A stretch of 64,000 bases of DNA from Ralstonia sp. TCR112 (GTDB lineage Bacteria > Pseudomonadota > Gammaproteobacteria > Burkholderiales > Burkholderiaceae): positions 1 to 64,000 of the forward strand of contig NZ_VOSS01000022.1 of NCBI RefSeq assembly GCF_007997035.1, read 5' to 3'. The stretch's first letter is position 1; the number at the start of each line of letters is the position of its first letter. Below the pieces are notes generated by a model, which was not told where the DNA came from, did not search any database, and worked only from the letters and a program-made list of their open reading frames with translations. Of this stretch, positions 33,679 to 46,508 are shown piece after piece. Made by a program: the position numbers and the translations under genes.

Positions 33679-34500
33679 TCAAATCAGAGTTCGGGCGATC
33701 ATCCCAAGCGCCACGACGCCCGCAAACGCGGCAAAGCCTTGCTGCAGCGCCGGCCCTGCCAAATGCTGCGCAAAGCGCCGGCCCACCAGCATGCCGGTCA
33801 ACGCGCCGGCCGCAAACGGCAGCGCGATATGCCAATCAACATGCCCGCCGATGGCCGAGGCGACCACGCCGCCCGTGGATACCAGCGCAATGACCGCCAA
33901 CGAGGTGGCGACGATGGTTTGCATCGGCAGATCGGTCGCGCGGCGCAATGCGGGCACGATGACAAAGCCGCCGCCCACGCCCAGCAACCCCGACAGGAAG
34001 CCTGCGCCCACGCCGGACGCCGCCAATGCGCGCGCGCACGGCAACGTCCACACAAGTTTGGCAGTGGTGGTGTCGAGGTGACAGGGCGGTGCGGTTCGCC
34101 TGGGCTGCGGGTCAGTGGATGGCGCTGCGCGCGCCTGCCGGAACATGCGCAGCGCCACGTAGGCGAGCACCACGGCAAACAGCAGCGTGAGCGGTGTGTT
34201 CGGCACGCGGTGCGCAACCCAGATGCCGAACGGCGAGATCACCACGCCGCACAGCGCCATCAACCCGGCAGCCTTGTAGCGCACCTTGCCTTCCCGCAAG
34301 CCGAGCATCGCGCCCAGCCCCGCGGATAGCCCCACTGCCAGCAGCGCAATCGGCGCGGCTTCCGGCACCGACAGATGCAATCCAAAAATCAGCAGCGGTA
34401 CCGCGACAATGGCGCCACCCGCGCCCGTGAGCGCGAGGATCAGCCCCACCACCGAGCCCAATCCCGCGCTGATGATCCACCCCGCTTCGATGGGCGACAT
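33679..34500 (-). CDS. TauE/SafE-family sulfite or sulfur-compound exporter
   Basis: A 273-residue membrane protein with two homologous halves and about eight hydrophobic segments. The repeats are seen as GLILALTGAGGAIVAVPLL near the N-terminus and FLSGLLGVGGGFVIVPAL in the second half, the TauE/SafE pattern. A hydrophilic loop with a Thr/Pro/Arg stretch divides them at about residues 120-145. It is 2 bases downstream of the BigR-type repressor gene, so it belongs to that operon, which suggests export of sulfite or thiosulfate made during sulfide detoxification. Confidence 0.88.
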   Translation of the reverse strand: MSPIEAGWIISAGLGSVVGLILALTGAGGAIVAVPLLIFGLHLSVPEAAPIALLAVGLSAGLGAMLGLREGKVRYKAAGLMALCGVVISPFGIWVAHRVPNTPLTLLFAVVLAYVALRMFRQARAAPSTDPQPRRTAPPCHLDTTTAKLVWTLPCARALAASGVGAGFLSGLLGVGGGFVIVPALRRATDLPMQTIVATSLAVIALVSTGGVVASAIGGHVDWHIALPFAAGALTGMLVGRRFAQHLAGPALQQGFAAFAGVVALGMIARTLI

Positions 34501-40245: not shown

Positions 40246-41079
40246 ATGAAACACGTCACTCTGCCCAACGGCGAACGCGTCCCTGCACTCGGCATGGGCA
40301 CCTGGAACATGGGCGACAACCGCGCCACCCGTGCCGAAGAAATCGCCACGCTGCGCCTGGGCCTCGACCTGGGTTTGCGCCTGATCGACACGGCCGAGAT
40401 GTACGGCGAAGGCCTCTCCGAATCATTGATTGGCGAGGCCATTGACGGACGGCGCGATGAGGTCTTTCTCGTCAGCAAGGTCTATCCGCACAACGCCAAC
40501 CGGCGCGGTATCGCCGCGGCGTGCGAGCGCAGCCTGCGCCGCCTCGGCACCGACCGGCTCGATTTGTACCTGCTGCACTGGCGTGGCGATGTGCCGTTCG
40601 AAGACACCTTGGAAGGCCTGCAGGCCCTGCAGCGCGACGGCAAGATCCGCCAGTACGGCGTGAGCAATCTTGACCTGTCCGATATGGAGGAGTGGTGGGA
40701 CGCGCCCGGCGGCGATCAGACCGCCGTCAACCAGCTGCTCTACAACCTCAGCCGGCGCGGCATCGAATGGGATGTGTTGCCCTGGCTGCGCGAGCGCCGT
40801 GTGCCGGTGATGGCCTATTCGCCCATTGAGCAGGCGCGGCTCGTTCGGCATCCGAAGCTGGTGCGCTTTGCGCAGGAGTCCGGCATGACGCCGGCACAGG
40901 TGGCGCTCGCGTGGCTGTTGGCGAATGACGACATCATCGCGATTCCCAAGACCGGCCACCGTGACCGCTTGCGCGAGAACATCGGGGCGCTGTCGCACAC
41001 GCTCACGGCTGAGCAGCTTGCGACGCTGGACAGCATCTTCCCGCCGCCCAAGGGGCCGCGCGCGCTCGAGATGCTCTGA
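40246..41079 (+). CDS. Aldo/keto reductase
   Basis: A 277-residue NADPH-dependent aldo/keto reductase, TIM barrel. The catalytic tetrad is visible: Asp and Tyr in LIDTAEMYGEG, Lys in FLVSKVYP and His in YLLHWRG. The cofactor phosphate site follows IPKTGHRDRLREN. The arrangement resembles the YeaE/YdbC type; substrate unknown. It is 90 bases after the OYE gene in the same direction and could be co-regulated as a carbonyl detoxifier. Confidence 0.92.
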   Translation: MKHVTLPNGERVPALGMGTWNMGDNRATRAEEIATLRLGLDLGLRLIDTAEMYGEGLSESLIGEAIDGRRDEVFLVSKVYPHNANRRGIAAACERSLRRLGTDRLDLYLLHWRGDVPFEDTLEGLQALQRDGKIRQYGVSNLDLSDMEEWWDAPGGDQTAVNQLLYNLSRRGIEWDVLPWLRERRVPVMAYSPIEQARLVRHPKLVRFAQESGMTPAQVALAWLLANDDIIAIPKTGHRDRLRENIGALSHTLTAEQLATLDSIFPPPKGPRALEML

Positions 41080-41100
41080 GCGGCCAAGCGCGCTAAGCGC

Positions 41101-41520
41101 TCAGCGCGACTTCGCCAGGTAGCGCGCGTGGTCGACGTAACCGATCAGATAGACGCGGGCCTTCTCGCGGGTGTCTTTGGTGACGCGGTCGGCGGCCTTG
41201 CGCGCGCCGGACGAAGACATCGACGCGCTGAGATGGTCGCGGAAACCGTCGTGCATGGTGCGCAGGTCGCCTTCGCAGGCGTCGAGCGCGGCGGCGACCA
41301 CGGACTTCGTCTGCGTGGTGCCCGGCACGCCGCTATCGGCTTGGCGCTGCACGCACGCCATGTAGTTGGCGCGCAGCACCTGCCAGCCGTTGTCTGCGCT
41401 GGCGTCAGTGGCGGCCGCGGCGGCGGTGGTCGAATCAACGGGCTGCTGTTGAGGGTGCGATGCGCACGCACCGAGCAAGGCTAGCAGGACAAGAGACGAG
41501 CAAGTCAGGGCTTTTTCCAT
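41101..41520 (-). CDS. Small lipoprotein of unknown function
   Basis: A 139-residue protein with a lipoprotein signal: MEKALTCSSLVLLALLGAC, lipobox LGAC with the lipidated Cys at 19. The mature part is Ala/Gln/Asp rich and then helical (residues 45-139) with two further cysteines that could pair in the periplasm. I do not recognise a family. The start at 41520 is chosen because it gives the signal peptide. It converges with the aldo/keto reductase gene 21 bases away. Confidence 0.75.
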   Translation of the reverse strand: MEKALTCSSLVLLALLGACASHPQQQPVDSTTAAAAATDASADNGWQVLRANYMACVQRQADSGVPGTTQTKSVVAAALDACEGDLRTMHDGFRDHLSASMSSSGARKAADRVTKDTREKARVYLIGYVDHARYLAKSR

Positions 41521-41751
41521 GGCATGGAATGTACTGCAGGGCCTCGCTGCTTGCGCTACGCGAAGTCGACCGGGATGCACGCCGTAACATTTGGAAACGA
41601 AAAAGGGCGCTGACGAAACGCCCCTGGCTCAACCCGCCGCACGACCGATTTCAGAAGACCCTGCCTGGGCGTATTTCGCTGCGCCGATGCATCGGCCGCA
41701 GCCACCGCCGCGATTCGGCGCACCACGCGCCGACAGCAAAGCGCGACGCGC

Positions 41752-42010
41752 GAGGCAAAAAGCTCGGGCTGTCGAGCAAAAAGCCTCGTGGGTCGAGCTC
41801 TGAGCCTCAACCGTCGAGCAAAAAGCTCGGCACGCCGAGCAAAAAGCTCGACACACGGAGCAAAAAGCTCGGCACGCGGAGTAAAAAGCTCGGCGCGCGG
41901 AGTAAAAAGCTCGACACGCCGAGCAAAAAGCTCGGCGCGCCAAGCAATTAGCTCCACACGTCGAGAAAAAAGCCTCAAACGTCGAGCTTCGATCTCGGTG
42001 AGCCGAGCTC
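41752..42010. repeat. 21-bp tandem repeat with phased A-tracts
   Basis: About twelve imperfect 21-base units of the form GAGCAAAAAGCTCGGCACGCC. A5 tracts begin at 41757, 41778, 41820, 41841, 41862, 41883, 41904, 41925 and 41967, always in steps of 21 or 42, about two helical turns. Most units are a small hairpin (CGAGC or GAGC, AAAAA loop, GCTC/GCTCG). The ends are degenerate. Because 21 is a multiple of three all frames stay open, but the heptad peptides they encode lack a start signal or a recognisable fold. It fills the gap between the aceE-like gene's 3' end and the lipoprotein gene's 5' end. Confidence 0.85.
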
Positions 42011-42033
42011 AATGCTTCGCGAGTGCAGATTGT

Positions 42034-44733
42034 TCAGCGCATCCACGGCGCGTCGGCCATGGTCGCGTGTTTGCCGTAGCGTGCAGCCGCCTCACGCACC
42101 ACGGCGTGATCCAGTTCACCGTCGTCGGCGAGCGCCTTCAGTGCGGCGATGACGATGGACGCGCGGTCCACTTCGAAGAACGCGCGCAGCGCCCTGCGGG
42201 AATCGCTGCGGCCGAAGCCGTCGGTGCCGAGCGTGACGTAGCGGCGCGGCACATGTGCACGGATCAGCTCCGGCACGGCGCGCACATAGTCGGTGGCCGC
42301 GACGACGGGGCCGCGTGATGCGCGCAAGACGGTCTCTACGTACGAAGGCGCGGCTTCTTCGCCCAGGCGGGCGACGCGCTCCGCAGCGATGGCCTCGCGG
42401 TGCAGCTCGGAAAAGCTCGTGACGCTCCAGGTGGCCGCGTCGATGTTCCAGTCGTCCTGGAGCATCTGCGCGGCGGCCATGACTTCGCCCAGGATGGCGC
42501 CGGAGCCGAGCAACTGCACGCGCGCGGTCGGCAGACGTTGCGGCGTCAGCGGATACATCCCTTTGAGAATGCCCTCGCGCACGTCACGATCCGGCATCGA
42601 CGGCTGCGCGTAGTTCTCGTTCGTCACCGTGAGGTAGTAGAACGTGTCCTCCTGGCGCTCCAGCATTGCGCGCATGCCTTCGTCGAGGATGACGGCCACC
42701 TCGTAGGCAAAGGCCGGGTCCCACGCGCGGCAGTTCGGCACGGTGGATGCGGCAAGATGGCTCGCGCCGTCCTGATGCTGCAGGCCTTCTCCGCCGAGCG
42801 TTGTCTTGCCCGCCGTGGCACCGATCAGGAAGCCGCGCGCGCGCTGGTCTGCCGCTGCCCAGATGAGATCGCCGATGCGCTGGAAGCCGAACATCGAGTA
42901 GTAGATGTAGAACGGCAGCATCGGCAGATCGTGCGTGCTGTAGGCGGTGGCGGCGGCAATCCACGACGAGATGGCGCCGGCCTCCGAGATGCCTTCCTCG
43001 AGGATCTGCCCGCCCGTGTCTTCGCGGTAATACAGCATCGAACCCAGATCTTCCGGTTCGTATTGCTGGCCCAGCGGCGAATAGATGCCGACCTGGCGGA
43101 ACATGCTCGCCATGCCGAAGGTGCGCGCCTCGTCCGCCACCACCGGCACCATGCGCGGGCCCAGCGTGTCGTCTTTCAGGAGGTTGCCGAACATGCGCAC
43201 GATCGCCATCGTGGTCGACATCTCGCGGCCTTCGGCTTGCAGTGCGAATTGTCCCCAGGATGGCAACGCAGGCACGGTCAGCGCCTGCGTTGCCGCCTTC
43301 CGCCGTCTGGGCAGATAGCCTCCGAGGGCAGCCCGGCGCGCATGCAGGTATTGCATCTCCGGGCTGTTTGGCGCTGGCTTGTAAAACTTCAATTGCTCGA
43401 CGTCGGTGTCCGACAGCGGCAGGCCGAAGCGATCGCGAAACGCCTTGAGCTGATCGACATCGAGCTTCTTCTGCTGGTGCGTCGTCATCCGACCTTGCCC
43501 AACGCTGCCCATGCCAAAGCCTTTCATCGTCTTGGCGAGGATCACGGTGGGCTGGCCCTTGTGCTGCAGCGCGCGGGCGTAGGCGGAGTGGAGCTTGCGC
43601 ACGTCGTGGCCGCCGCGGCGCAGGCGGTCGATGTCTTCGTTGGTGAAATGCGAGACGAGCGCGGCAAGCTCGGGGTTCTGGCCGAAGAAGCGCTCCCGGT
43701 TGTAGGCGCCGTCGTTGGCGGAGAAAGTCTGGAACTGGCCGTCGACGGTCTGCGCGAATGCCCGCAGCAAGGCCCCCGAATGGTCGCGGGCGAAGAGGGC
43801 ATCCCAGTCCGAGCCCCACAGTACCTTGATGACGTTCCAGCCCGCACCGGTGAACTGCGCTTCGAGTTCGTCGACGATGCGGCCGTTGCCGCGCACGGGG
43901 CCGTCGAGCCGCTGGAGGTTGCAGTTGATGACGAACACGATGTTGTCGAGCCGCTCGCGCGCCGCCAGCGACAGCGCTCCGATCGATTCCGGCTCGTCCA
44001 TTTCGCCGTCGCCAAAGAAGCCCCACACCTTGCGTTCTGCGGTCTGCAGCAACCCGCGGTTGTGCAGGTAGCGCATGAAGCGCGCCTGGTAGATCGCATT
44101 GATCGGCCCGATGCCCATCGACCCGGTCGGGAACTGCCAGAACTCGGGCATCAACCACGGATGCGGATACGAGCACAGCCCCGGACCGGTGATTTCGCGC
44201 CGATAGTGTTCGAGCTGCGTTTCACTCAGGAAGCCTTCGAGATACGCACGTGCGTAGACGCCAGGCGATGCGTGCGGTTGGAAGTAGACGAGATCGCCGC
44301 CGTGCGCCGCGTTGTCTGCTCGGAAGAAATGATTGAAGCCGACTTCGAACAGATCGGCGGCCGATGCGTAGCTGGCGATGTGCCCGCCCAGCTCGCCGTA
44401 GGCCTGGTTGGCGCGCACGACCATGGCGAGCGCGTTCCAGCGCAGCGCGGCGGCCAGTCGCTCTTCGGTATCGACATCACCGGGATACGGCGGCTGCGCC
44501 TCAACGGGGATCGTGTTGGCGTAGGGCGTAATGCGGGCAAGGGCGGTGCCGACGCCGAGCTTTGCGGCGCGCTCCGCCAAGCGGTCGAACAGGAACTGCG
44601 CGCGCGCGGTGCCGGCATGCTGGACGACGGCCTCCAGCGCGTCGAGCCATTCGGCGGTTTCCCCTGGGTCGCTGTCTTCGATGCGGTGCGCGAGGGAGCG
44701 CATCGACGCGGCGCCTGTCGATAAATCCGTCAT
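42034..44733 (-). CDS. Homodimeric 2-oxo acid dehydrogenase E1 (AceE/MdeB-like)
   Basis: An 899-residue thiamine-diphosphate E1 of the homodimeric AceE type, full length. The TPP motif GFFGDGEMDEPES followed by NIVFVINCNLQRLDGPVRGN is intact, as is the EGISEAGAISSW region of the second TPP-fold domain. No E2 or E3 gene is near, so it would borrow those subunits. It lies beside ACC deaminase, whose product is 2-oxobutyrate. In Pseudomonas putida, mdeB, a similar E1 beside methionine gamma-lyase and an Lrp gene, acts on 2-oxobutyrate; that role is the best guess here, but pyruvate is possible. Confidence 0.9.
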   Translation of the reverse strand: MTDLSTGAASMRSLAHRIEDSDPGETAEWLDALEAVVQHAGTARAQFLFDRLAERAAKLGVGTALARITPYANTIPVEAQPPYPGDVDTEERLAAALRWNALAMVVRANQAYGELGGHIASYASAADLFEVGFNHFFRADNAAHGGDLVYFQPHASPGVYARAYLEGFLSETQLEHYRREITGPGLCSYPHPWLMPEFWQFPTGSMGIGPINAIYQARFMRYLHNRGLLQTAERKVWGFFGDGEMDEPESIGALSLAARERLDNIVFVINCNLQRLDGPVRGNGRIVDELEAQFTGAGWNVIKVLWGSDWDALFARDHSGALLRAFAQTVDGQFQTFSANDGAYNRERFFGQNPELAALVSHFTNEDIDRLRRGGHDVRKLHSAYARALQHKGQPTVILAKTMKGFGMGSVGQGRMTTHQQKKLDVDQLKAFRDRFGLPLSDTDVEQLKFYKPAPNSPEMQYLHARRAALGGYLPRRRKAATQALTVPALPSWGQFALQAEGREMSTTMAIVRMFGNLLKDDTLGPRMVPVVADEARTFGMASMFRQVGIYSPLGQQYEPEDLGSMLYYREDTGGQILEEGISEAGAISSWIAAATAYSTHDLPMLPFYIYYSMFGFQRIGDLIWAAADQRARGFLIGATAGKTTLGGEGLQHQDGASHLAASTVPNCRAWDPAFAYEVAVILDEGMRAMLERQEDTFYYLTVTNENYAQPSMPDRDVREGILKGMYPLTPQRLPTARVQLLGSGAILGEVMAAAQMLQDDWNIDAATWSVTSFSELHREAIAAERVARLGEEAAPSYVETVLRASRGPVVAATDYVRAVPELIRAHVPRRYVTLGTDGFGRSDSRRALRAFFEVDRASIVIAALKALADDGELDHAVVREAAARYGKHATMADAPWMR

Positions 44734-44824
44734 GACGGGTCCTGCCTGAAGGAAGGATGGGAAGGCGGGCCGTGATCATGCGATGCACGCCCGCGCCCGG
44801 ATGCGCCGCCGCGGCGGCGCCGCA

Positions 44825-45841
44825 TCAACCGTTGCGGAAGATGAAGCTGTATGCGTTGAGCGCCGGCACGCCGCCCAGGTGGGCGTAGAGCACGCGCGAG
44901 CCCTCGGGAAATTCACCGTTGCGCACCATGTCGATCATGCCGTGCATGGATTTCCCTTCGTACACCGGGTCGGTCAGCATGGCTTCCTGGCGTGCGCACA
45001 GGCGAATGGCTTCGAGCGTGCCTTCATTGGGCAGGCCGTATTCCGGGCCGCCATAGCGCGTGTCGAGCACCACGTCCTTCTCTGTGATGTTTCGGCCGAG
45101 GTCGACCAGTTCGGCGGTGTGCTGTGCGATGCGGAGGATCTGCGCGCGCGTCTGTTCCGGCTTGGCCGAGGCGTCGATGCCGATCACCTTGTCGGCCCGG
45201 CCATCCGCTGCAAAGCCGACGACCATGCCGGCTTGCGTACTGCCCGTGACCGAGCAGACGACGATGTAGTCGAACTTGAAGCCCAGCTGCGCTTCCTGCT
45301 GCCGCACTTCTTCGGCAAAACCGACAAAGCCCAAGCCGCCGAGCGGGTGTTCGGAGCAGCCGGCCGGAATCGGGAACGGCTTGCCGCCGCGCTTGCGCAC
45401 GTCTTCCATGGCCTGTTCCCAGCTGGGCCGGATGCCGATGTCGAAGCCTGCGGCATCGAGGCGCACGTCGGCGCCCATGATGCGCGACATCTCGATATTG
45501 CCGACGCGGTCGTACACGGCGTCGGAGTAGTTCACCCAGTTTTCCTGCACCAGCACGCACTTCAGGCCGAGGTGCGCGGCCACGGCGGCCACCTGGCGCG
45601 TCTGGTTCGACTGAATCCCGCCAATGGACACCAGCGTGTCGTACCCGCCCTCCAGCGCTTCCGGGATCAGGTATTCGAGCTTGCGCGTCTTGTTGCCGCC
45701 GAAGGCCAGGCCGCTGTTGCAGTCTTCGCGCTTGGCAAACAGCTCCACCTTGCCACCCAGGTGCGCGCTCAATCGTTTCAGCGGCTGGATGGGCGTCGGG
45801 CCGAACGTCAGGGGATAACGGGGAAATCGCTGCAGGTTCAT
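44825..45841 (-). CDS. acdS: 1-aminocyclopropane-1-carboxylate deaminase
   Basis: A 338-residue PLP enzyme of the tryptophan synthase-beta fold that opens ACC, the plant ethylene precursor, to 2-oxobutyrate and ammonia. The PLP lysine is Lys51 in [12 protein letters not shown]; the nucleophile block [11 protein letters not shown] follows. Residues that separate true ACC deaminases from D-cysteine desulfhydrases are present: Tyr294 and Glu295 in VYEGKSM and Leu322 in YAHLGGVP. Divergent from an Lrp gene as in other acdR-acdS pairs; the E1 gene follows 91 bases downstream. Confidence 0.95.
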
Positions 45842-45986
45842 GAGGTGGCTCCTTCAGTGCCGCAAATGGCGGGATGTCGGAAACCAATGGTACGCAGAAC
45901 GCCGCGAAATGAGGTTGCAAAGATCGTCTACTATCCAGAACGGAGCGGGCCGTATATCAGATGAAGAATCTCTTTATTTCTTGAAA

Positions 45987-46508
45987 ATGAAAAAGAGCGA
46001 AACAAAATTGCAGGAAGATTCTGACGCGTCGGCAGCTTCGGCGCGCCACGCCTTGGATCGCACCGATCGCGCGATTCTCCGGGCGCTCCAGCGCGATGCG
46101 TCCATCTCCAACGTGGCCCTGGCAGCCAAGGTGAACCTCAGCCCGCCGGCCTGCCTGCGCCGCGTGGAACGGCTCAAGGAGCTGGGGCTGATCAAGGGGA
46201 TTGTTGCGCTGCTGGATCCGCGTGCGCTGGATCTGGGGTCGCTGGTGATGATCGGCGTCGTGCTGGATCGCTCGACGCCGGAATCGTTCACCGCATTCGA
46301 GAAGGCGGTGCAGAAGGTGCCCGGCTGCCTGGAGTGCCACGTCGTGACGGGCGAATTCGATTACTTCATGCTCGTGCGCACGAAAGACAACGAAGGCTAC
46401 AACCGGCTCCATGCCGAACAGCTGCTGTATCTGCCGGGCGTGCGGCAGATCCGGACGTTCATGGTGCTCAAGCAGGTGCTGTCGACGACGGAACTGCCGG
46501 TGGCGTAG
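45987..46508 (+). CDS. acdR: Lrp/AsnC regulator of ACC deaminase (AcdR)
   Basis: A 173-residue Lrp/AsnC protein. The HTH is ALDRTDRAILRALQRDASISNVALAAKVNLSPPACLRRVERLKELGLI, and the C-terminal RAM effector domain follows (CLECHVVTGEFDYFMLVRTKD). A charged, Ser/Ala-rich N-terminal extension of about 25 residues precedes the HTH. The ATG at 45987 has only a weak ribosome site. Divergent from acdS across 145 bases; AcdR homologues activate acdS when bound with effector. Confidence 0.88.
   Translation: MKKSETKLQEDSDASAASARHALDRTDRAILRALQRDASISNVALAAKVNLSPPACLRRVERLKELGLIKGIVALLDPRALDLGSLVMIGVVLDRSTPESFTAFEKAVQKVPGCLECHVVTGEFDYFMLVRTKDNEGYNRLHAEQLLYLPGVRQIRTFMVLKQVLSTTELPVA

Follow-up and report, generated by a model that had tools for sequence, protein, structure and literature searches.

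The 21-bp array found in the analysed stretch (the window, 64,000 nucleotides of Ralstonia sp. TCR112) is one copy of a dispersed, apparently non-coding and extragenic family of tandem palindromes, and this conclusion is well supported. The family is real and is defined at the DNA level, its common features are dyad symmetry and a 21-bp pitch, and its function lies between phased protein docking and a neutral palindromic minisatellite. The existence of a dispersed family, beyond the single copy that was first described, changes the question that is asked. The features of the window to which we refer are the following:

41732..42025, no strand assigned: 21-bp array of 14 units, the first one weak
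41816..41933, plus strand: A5 core, six A5 units of the type GAG[C/T]-AAAAA-GCTC; the copy number differs among species here
41942..42025, no strand assigned: degenerate edge units adjoining the dehydrogenase gene, with the centres AATTA, AAAAA, TTCGA and TCAAT
42034..44733, minus strand: TIGR03186-type dehydrogenase gene, 899 residues, named mdeB in plasmid records
41101..41520, minus strand: lipoprotein-like open reading frame, its N-terminus read by eye, with no NCBIfam match
41603..41625, minus strand: terminator-like stem with a T-run between the array and the lipoprotein-like frame, a consensus match only

A good unit of the array consists of a 13-bp interrupted palindrome, GAGC-N5-GCTC, and an 8-bp linker. 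Tandem Repeats Finder detects periods of 21, 42 and 63 at 41755-41987 (scores of 79, 173 and 213, respectively), and a sequence-agnostic finder gives 13 units starting at 41753 with all 12 steps equal to 21 bp. Together with the reading unit by unit, this confirms the tandem 21-bp array that was reported in an earlier note on this DNA. The note had counted about twelve A5 units spaced by 21 or 42 bp. The spacing is seen in the individual units, and A5 tracts are found in nine of them; the others have TCTGA or AATTA centres and the outer units are degenerate. It had also described nearly every unit as GAGC-AAAAA-GCTC. The phased palindromes are present, but 'nearly every' goes too far, with GAGCAAAAAGCTC exact in four units and within one mismatch in six. 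In the genome of the window the A5 motif has 15 exact copies, every one inside an array, as are 8 of its 15 one-mismatch copies; the reversed pattern, used as a control in the same genome, gives no exact matches and 2+4 at one mismatch. Because every exact copy lies in an array, the A5 motif is not an ordinary single operator. A chance origin of the array is ruled out by the repeat finder, by the reversed-pattern counts and by the shuffle and column-permuted curvature controls. Tandem Repeats Finder also reports another tandem repeat in the window, at positions 33746-33811, with a period of 28 bp and 2.4 copies.

The array is located 16 bp away from the stop codon of the dehydrogenase gene. 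Its setting between the 3' end of an aceE-like gene and a lipoprotein gene, as first described, is confirmed, with the correction that TIGR03186 ('alpha-ketoglutarate dehydrogenase', 1736 bits) fits the gene better than aceE does (1423 bits). Next to it lie genes for ACC deaminase and for an Lrp-type regulator (42034-46508 of the window). The product of ACC deaminase is 2-oxobutyrate, and because the neighbouring enzyme yields this compound, 2-oxobutyrate may be the true substrate of the dehydrogenase.

At least eight (about eight) array places, with roughly 5-17 units each, were found on several contigs of the genome of the window; some of these arrays are at contig ends and therefore two places may be halves of one array. 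The family search used a covariance model built from 58 three-unit segments with a cut-off of E<=1e-4, and the per-genome array counts obtained from it are lower bounds. By this model 15 of the 16 Ralstonia genomes carry arrays, G012 alone being without a match, which bears out the presence of the unit in other Ralstonia. An exact two-unit pattern matches 24 of 398 genomes of the taxonomic family, including 11 of the 16 inside the genus; each of the 13 genomes outside it has one pair, none with an A5 or TCNGA centre. Once stricter filters are added to the covariance model, matches are found in 2 of the 369 genomes searched in the class, one of them the window's own. Contigs C92, C102, C229 and C259 of the draft genome G000 start or stop in or near arrays, and arrays may act as assembly breakers in this draft.

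The arrays have about 5-29 units and are located between genes, often shortly after a stop codon. In most of the arrays that were read, A5 units alternate with GAGC-TCNGA-GCTC units at 42 bp, and the window array, which is nearly all A5, is atypical in the family. Of 137 A5 units, 136 have A in the middle; in 137 units selected as TCN(GA, AA or GG) the centre base is A in 34, C in 41, G in 9 and T in 53. Despite the divergence of the linkers, 612 of 617 unit-to-unit steps are 21 bp as counted by a finder that penalised other steps; without the penalty the steps are multiples of 7 with five exceptions, which mirrors the inner heptamer GAGCTCN. A variant array of the type GAGTTCAGAACCC, also with a 21-bp pitch, is present in another Ralstonia genome (L208 of G013). 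Based on rough, codon-score gene calls, 2 of 38 Ralstonia arrays overlap a called gene, 24 of the 37 facing gene 3' ends are at most 126 bp from the array, and the median distance to the array is 200 bp for facing 5' ends vs 91 bp for 3' ends. The 33 gaps used comprise 17 tandem, 10 convergent and 6 divergent ones, as compared with 49, 28 and 23% of the intergenic bases; the gap classes are thus occupied about in proportion to their length.

The number of units differs between species. At three orthologous loci we found 10-14 units (the dehydrogenase locus), 5-23 and 5-16, so the copy-number variation considered in the earlier note is borne out in the comparison between species. At the dehydrogenase locus G005 has the two flanking genes and no array; in G014 (L021) the array and the far flank are kept and all that is left of the dehydrogenase gene is an 84-bp match. 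A second locus was read in nine further genomes (G013 was left out). It has arrays with changed units in G004, G007 and G009, a short remnant in G010 and no clear array in G012; the array is absent in G005 and G011, and none is seen in G002 or, near a contig end, in G003. That some orthologous sites have lost it speaks against the array being essential. Orthologous pairs differ at 9.8% of sites in the arms, 13.9% in the centres, 21.9% in the linkers and 15.0% in the flanks, figures in which the pairs are non-independent and the arm value can be lowered by homogenisation. Alignment gaps of 21 and its multiples within arrays are clearest at the dehydrogenase locus. Many gaps are short and not multiples of 21, mostly at less alignable loci, and there we read them as alignment ambiguity.

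The dyad symmetry can also be followed through the changes in the two arms. At one orthologous locus, the arms of the 21-bp array are different in G004 and G007, for example GCGTTCAGAACGC, and the change affects both sides. In alignment A1, whose members were picked for GAGC..GCTC and are biased by this choice, no arm covariation was seen (90.8% paired vs 90.7% in shuffled). A sequence-agnostic set was also analyzed, comprising 57 arrays in which orthologous arrays were counted apart, some loci stand as two pieces and one array (L269) is from outside the genus; the finder behind it favours complementarity when choosing the phase. Among the TCNGA-type units of this set, pair 4-10 is complementary in 219 of 274 vs 173.8+-5.7 (none of 2000 within-array shuffles as high; 21 informative arrays), where duplication within arrays inflates the counts, and with one vote per array the result is 32 of 40 vs 26.4 (p=0.0035). 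Pair 2-12 is marginal in these units (p=0.048) and pairs 1-13 and 3-11 show no covariation. No arm pair covaries in the A5-type units (pair 4-10, p=0.11), the slid-partner controls are flat, and covariation is absent from 14 Xanthomonadaceae arrays (p=0.19) and 27 Oscillatoria arrays (p=0.93).

Similar arrays were looked for across phyla by scanning GTDB r220 contigs with a three-unit pattern. The arms and the pitch are fixed by the pattern, and independent evidence comes only from the centres, the alternation and the linkers. The scan gave at least 116 stretches. Among those listed, up to 45 have A5-like, TCNGA or mixed centres, a number that is an upper bound as the A5-like class includes some possibly coding stretches and coding was judged by eye; the rest of the 116 are 5 plain heptamer repeats and 66 others. 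The plain GAGCTCN heptamer tandem repeats (L071, L108, L132, L151 and L152) are picked up by the pattern since three heptamers make up 21 bp. Of the 12 genomes behind loci chosen from the scan, 10 have matches to model R1, namely Lysobacter sp. Root494 and MMG2, L. soli, Luteimonas cucumeris, Stenotrophomonas pictorum, two Oscillatoria (with 59 and 127 matches), one Bacteroidales, one Verrucomicrobiales and one proteobacterial MAG; no match was obtained in L. enzymogenes or Roseofilum. Several Lysobacter arrays show the A5/TCNGA alternation, which is not imposed by the search pattern. Oscillatoria princeps RMCB-10 and PCC 10802 have dozens of TCNGA-only arrays (L063, L068, L080, L111 and L135 among them) with the linker GAACGATG or, on the complement side, CATCGTTC. 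A5-only arrays of 14-15 units with a 21-bp pitch are found in a Bacteroidales MAG (L142) and a Verrucomicrobiales MAG (L154). It could be suggested that all of these belong to a widely shared class of two-turn palindromes that has moved among distantly related bacteria (Ralstonia, relatives of Lysobacter, Oscillatoria and perhaps also Bacteroidales and Verrucomicrobiales), and that a putative dimeric DNA-binding factor would read the arrays to organise or mark the chromosome between genes, a proposal that we consider unlikely.

Carriage by phages was rejected: viral contigs gave 2 matches, and the ~180 bases around each are unlike the family arrays. No plasmid match covering an array was found among the matches listed (the best 15 of 34 and the best 15 of 37; 0 records in another search), and the low-complexity filter of BLAST may hide arrays in such searches. 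The A5-bearing strand seemed to switch mid-chromosome. It follows the replichore in 6 of 8 arrays of the G015 chromosome (C2) and in 3 of 4 of the G008 chromosome (C1), which is not significant; the assignment places dnaA at the contig start and takes the sign change of the GC skew at ~1.45-1.63 Mb, and several of these arrays are orthologous. A tie between the A5 strand and the polarity of replication is suggestive at most.

Several explanations can be offered for such arrays. One, proposed in the earlier note, is an intrinsically curved DNA platform for a nucleoid protein. Curvature was predicted with two wedge models, full and AA-only. The window array is predicted to be curved, as that note had expected, beyond shuffles and also beyond controls that keep the period: the bend is 86.6 degrees per 63 bp vs 38.1+-15.3 in column-permuted controls by the full model and 71.4 vs 29.3+-13.7 by the AA-only model (0/60 as high in both), and it exceeds dinucleotide shuffles (0/200 as high) and unit-shuffled controls (0/60 as high). 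The column-permuted control is the fair one because a two-turn repeat accumulates some bend by itself; in the full model the A-tract-poor TCNGA arrays L055 and L111 and the alternating arrays all exceed plain shuffles. Against column-permuted controls, however, the fractions as high are 0.40 and 0.35 for L055 and L111 in the full model and 0.82 and 0.92 in the AA-only model, and alternating arrays are intermediate (0.02-0.10). L055 and L111 keep the pitch and the palindrome and bend no more than a permuted 21-bp repeat; curvature was rejected on these arrays as the feature that the family shares, neither curvature nor A-tracts are supported as the point of the element, and a curved platform is quite unlikely. 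Another hypothesis places the function in RNA, as tandem hairpins in the 3' untranslated part of a transcript or as stacked intrinsic terminators, and a processed transcript tail had been suggested before. Both strands indeed fold better than shuffles (z of -9.4 and -8.2), and there are 6 terminator-like matches vs 1.5+-1.3 expected, 5 of them within the window array and all of these on the dehydrogenase strand. Yet both strands fold well because any palindrome array must, and the linkers preceding T5 are no more self-complementary (1.35 vs 1.26 pairs, p=0.32). In 20 arrays oriented by the nearest gene 3' end, the sense strand has 96 G-U vs 99 A-C arm mismatches (more G-U in 8 arrays, fewer in 9) and carries A5, not T5, in 15. 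The wobble-compatible changes favour neither strand and therefore the constraint looks to be on the DNA and not on RNA, which speaks against the transcript tail. A search of Rfam with positions 41000-42600 of the window gave five matches at E<=1, none near the gathering score, the best being a plant-type miRNA model (E 0.003, 30.6 of 114 bits), and an RNA element is very unlikely. It can also be noted that 21 bp are seven codons, which would fit a coding heptapeptide repeat such as SKKLxxx/SSELxxx. Among 41 arrays the GCN frame is open in 34 and the SKKL/SSEL frame in 23, and the third codon position of the GCN frame is the most variable on average (0.99 vs 0.73 and 0.81 bits). Against this, no frame is open throughout the 41 arrays; two of the seven GCN third positions (positions 11 and 2 of the unit) rank with the best conserved, being nearly invariant with 0.07 and 0.23 bits; the SKKL/SSEL frame has no third-position excess; the A5 centre is A in all units but one, although AAA and AAG are synonymous in the SKKL frame; and the open reading frame of the window that runs through the array has no NCBIfam match. 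Judged by these reading frames, the array probably does not code for protein, and a heptapeptide repeat is extremely improbable.

The explanation that we tentatively put forward, at somewhat less than an even chance, is a BIME-like array of extragenic palindromes with gain and loss of units, in which the phased units might dock a dimeric DNA-binding protein; we infer the docking, as we would any benefit to the cell. Such an element would act as DNA, rather than as RNA or protein. Units would be gained and lost via slippage or unequal exchange, largely in 21-bp steps, and the dyad symmetry may be maintained through selection or through hairpin-templated correction. With a pitch of two turns all the dyads would point to the same side of the helix, an arrangement that would favour dimeric factors bound next to one another, and A-tract bending would be an add-on in some arrays. 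In favour of this reading count the arrays in 15 of 16 Ralstonia genomes, the 21-bp steps kept while the linkers diverge, the covariation of pair 4-10 and the arms changed on both sides in G004 and G007, the equal wobble-compatible changes on the two strands, the lower divergence of arms than of linkers, the copy numbers and the states of G005 and G014 at the dehydrogenase locus, the confinement of exact A5 copies to arrays and the alternation seen also in Lysobacter relatives. Against it, no protein that binds the units was found, and many alignment gaps are not multiples of 21. Nearly as likely is a neutral or selfish minisatellite, in which hairpin-prone units slip, template switching preserves the arms, homogenisation spreads variants and the space behind genes is harmless. 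Mutation through template switching between imperfect inverted repeats has been reported in the literature, and the neutral minisatellite is further favoured by the copy-number variation, by the array-less sites and remnants, by the array that persists in G014 after the loss of the neighbouring gene and by the use of gap classes in proportion to their length. The arms also decay towards the ends of the arrays, with a mean score of 5.87 of 8 at the end vs about 6.8 inside; this is as expected from a neutral array and counts against docking. So does the finding of a single covarying arm pair (4-10), which is absent in two other clades. What the neutral minisatellite explains less well is the near-constant 21-bp pitch while the linkers diverge, and the similar arms, centres and alternation in distant clades, for which pure drift needs transfer.

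If the arrays bind protein, an as yet unseen chromosome-organising factor would have in them a ready-made set of sites across the genus. If instead they are neutral, the orthologous loci, where arrays may be full, changed, decayed or absent, would make them well suited to a natural test of how the symmetry of palindromes is preserved by slippage and template switching. The arrays are also possible typing loci.

In the open-licence literature no description of this 21-bp palindrome unit was found, and the arrays can be compared with several known systems. CRISPR consists of near-identical repeats with unique spacers between them; here the linkers are 8 bp and related to each other, and the absence of a CRISPR match stands as first stated. 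Intrinsically curved DNA is made of phased A-tracts, and the window copy resembles it with A5 every two or four turns, but A-tract-free members keep the rest of the design. Like minisatellites (VNTRs), the arrays have tandem units whose number differs between genomes; unlike them, the units are palindromic, one unit is common to many arrays per genome and similar units occur in distant clades. Triplex repeats form a further group (PMC4666352, accessible in part). PARCELs, as presented in the accessible part of their description, are coding tandem repeats of 25 residues (75 nt) with dyad symmetry and a patchy distribution across distant microbes (PMC2996958). To that extent the likeness is in the tandem repeats, the dyad symmetry and the patchiness over distant microbes, and the difference is in a unit of 21 bp that is apparently non-coding, with no frame open in all 41 arrays. 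The REP/BIME elements are, by the accessible parts of two papers, dispersed extragenic palindromes with regular spacing, composite arrays and alternating unit types; REP usually has more than 100 copies per genome, and the RAYT gene is flanked by cognate repeats (PMC2817692; PMC3686654). A RAYT gene flanked by array units was not found, with no units within ~1.5 kb of the six Y1_Tnp genes examined, one of them from Oscillatoria. Y1_Tnp itself occurs once in each of five Ralstonia genomes, including the array-less G012, and six times in Oscillatoria princeps, and two array-bearing Lysobacter genomes have none. Membership in REP/BIME was rejected on this RAYT test, in agreement with the earlier note, which had seen no fit to REP. 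As far as these sources go, the family arrays share with REP/BIME their being dispersed, extragenic, palindromic and regularly spaced with alternating units, and differ from them in the fixed two-turn pitch and the 13-bp units.
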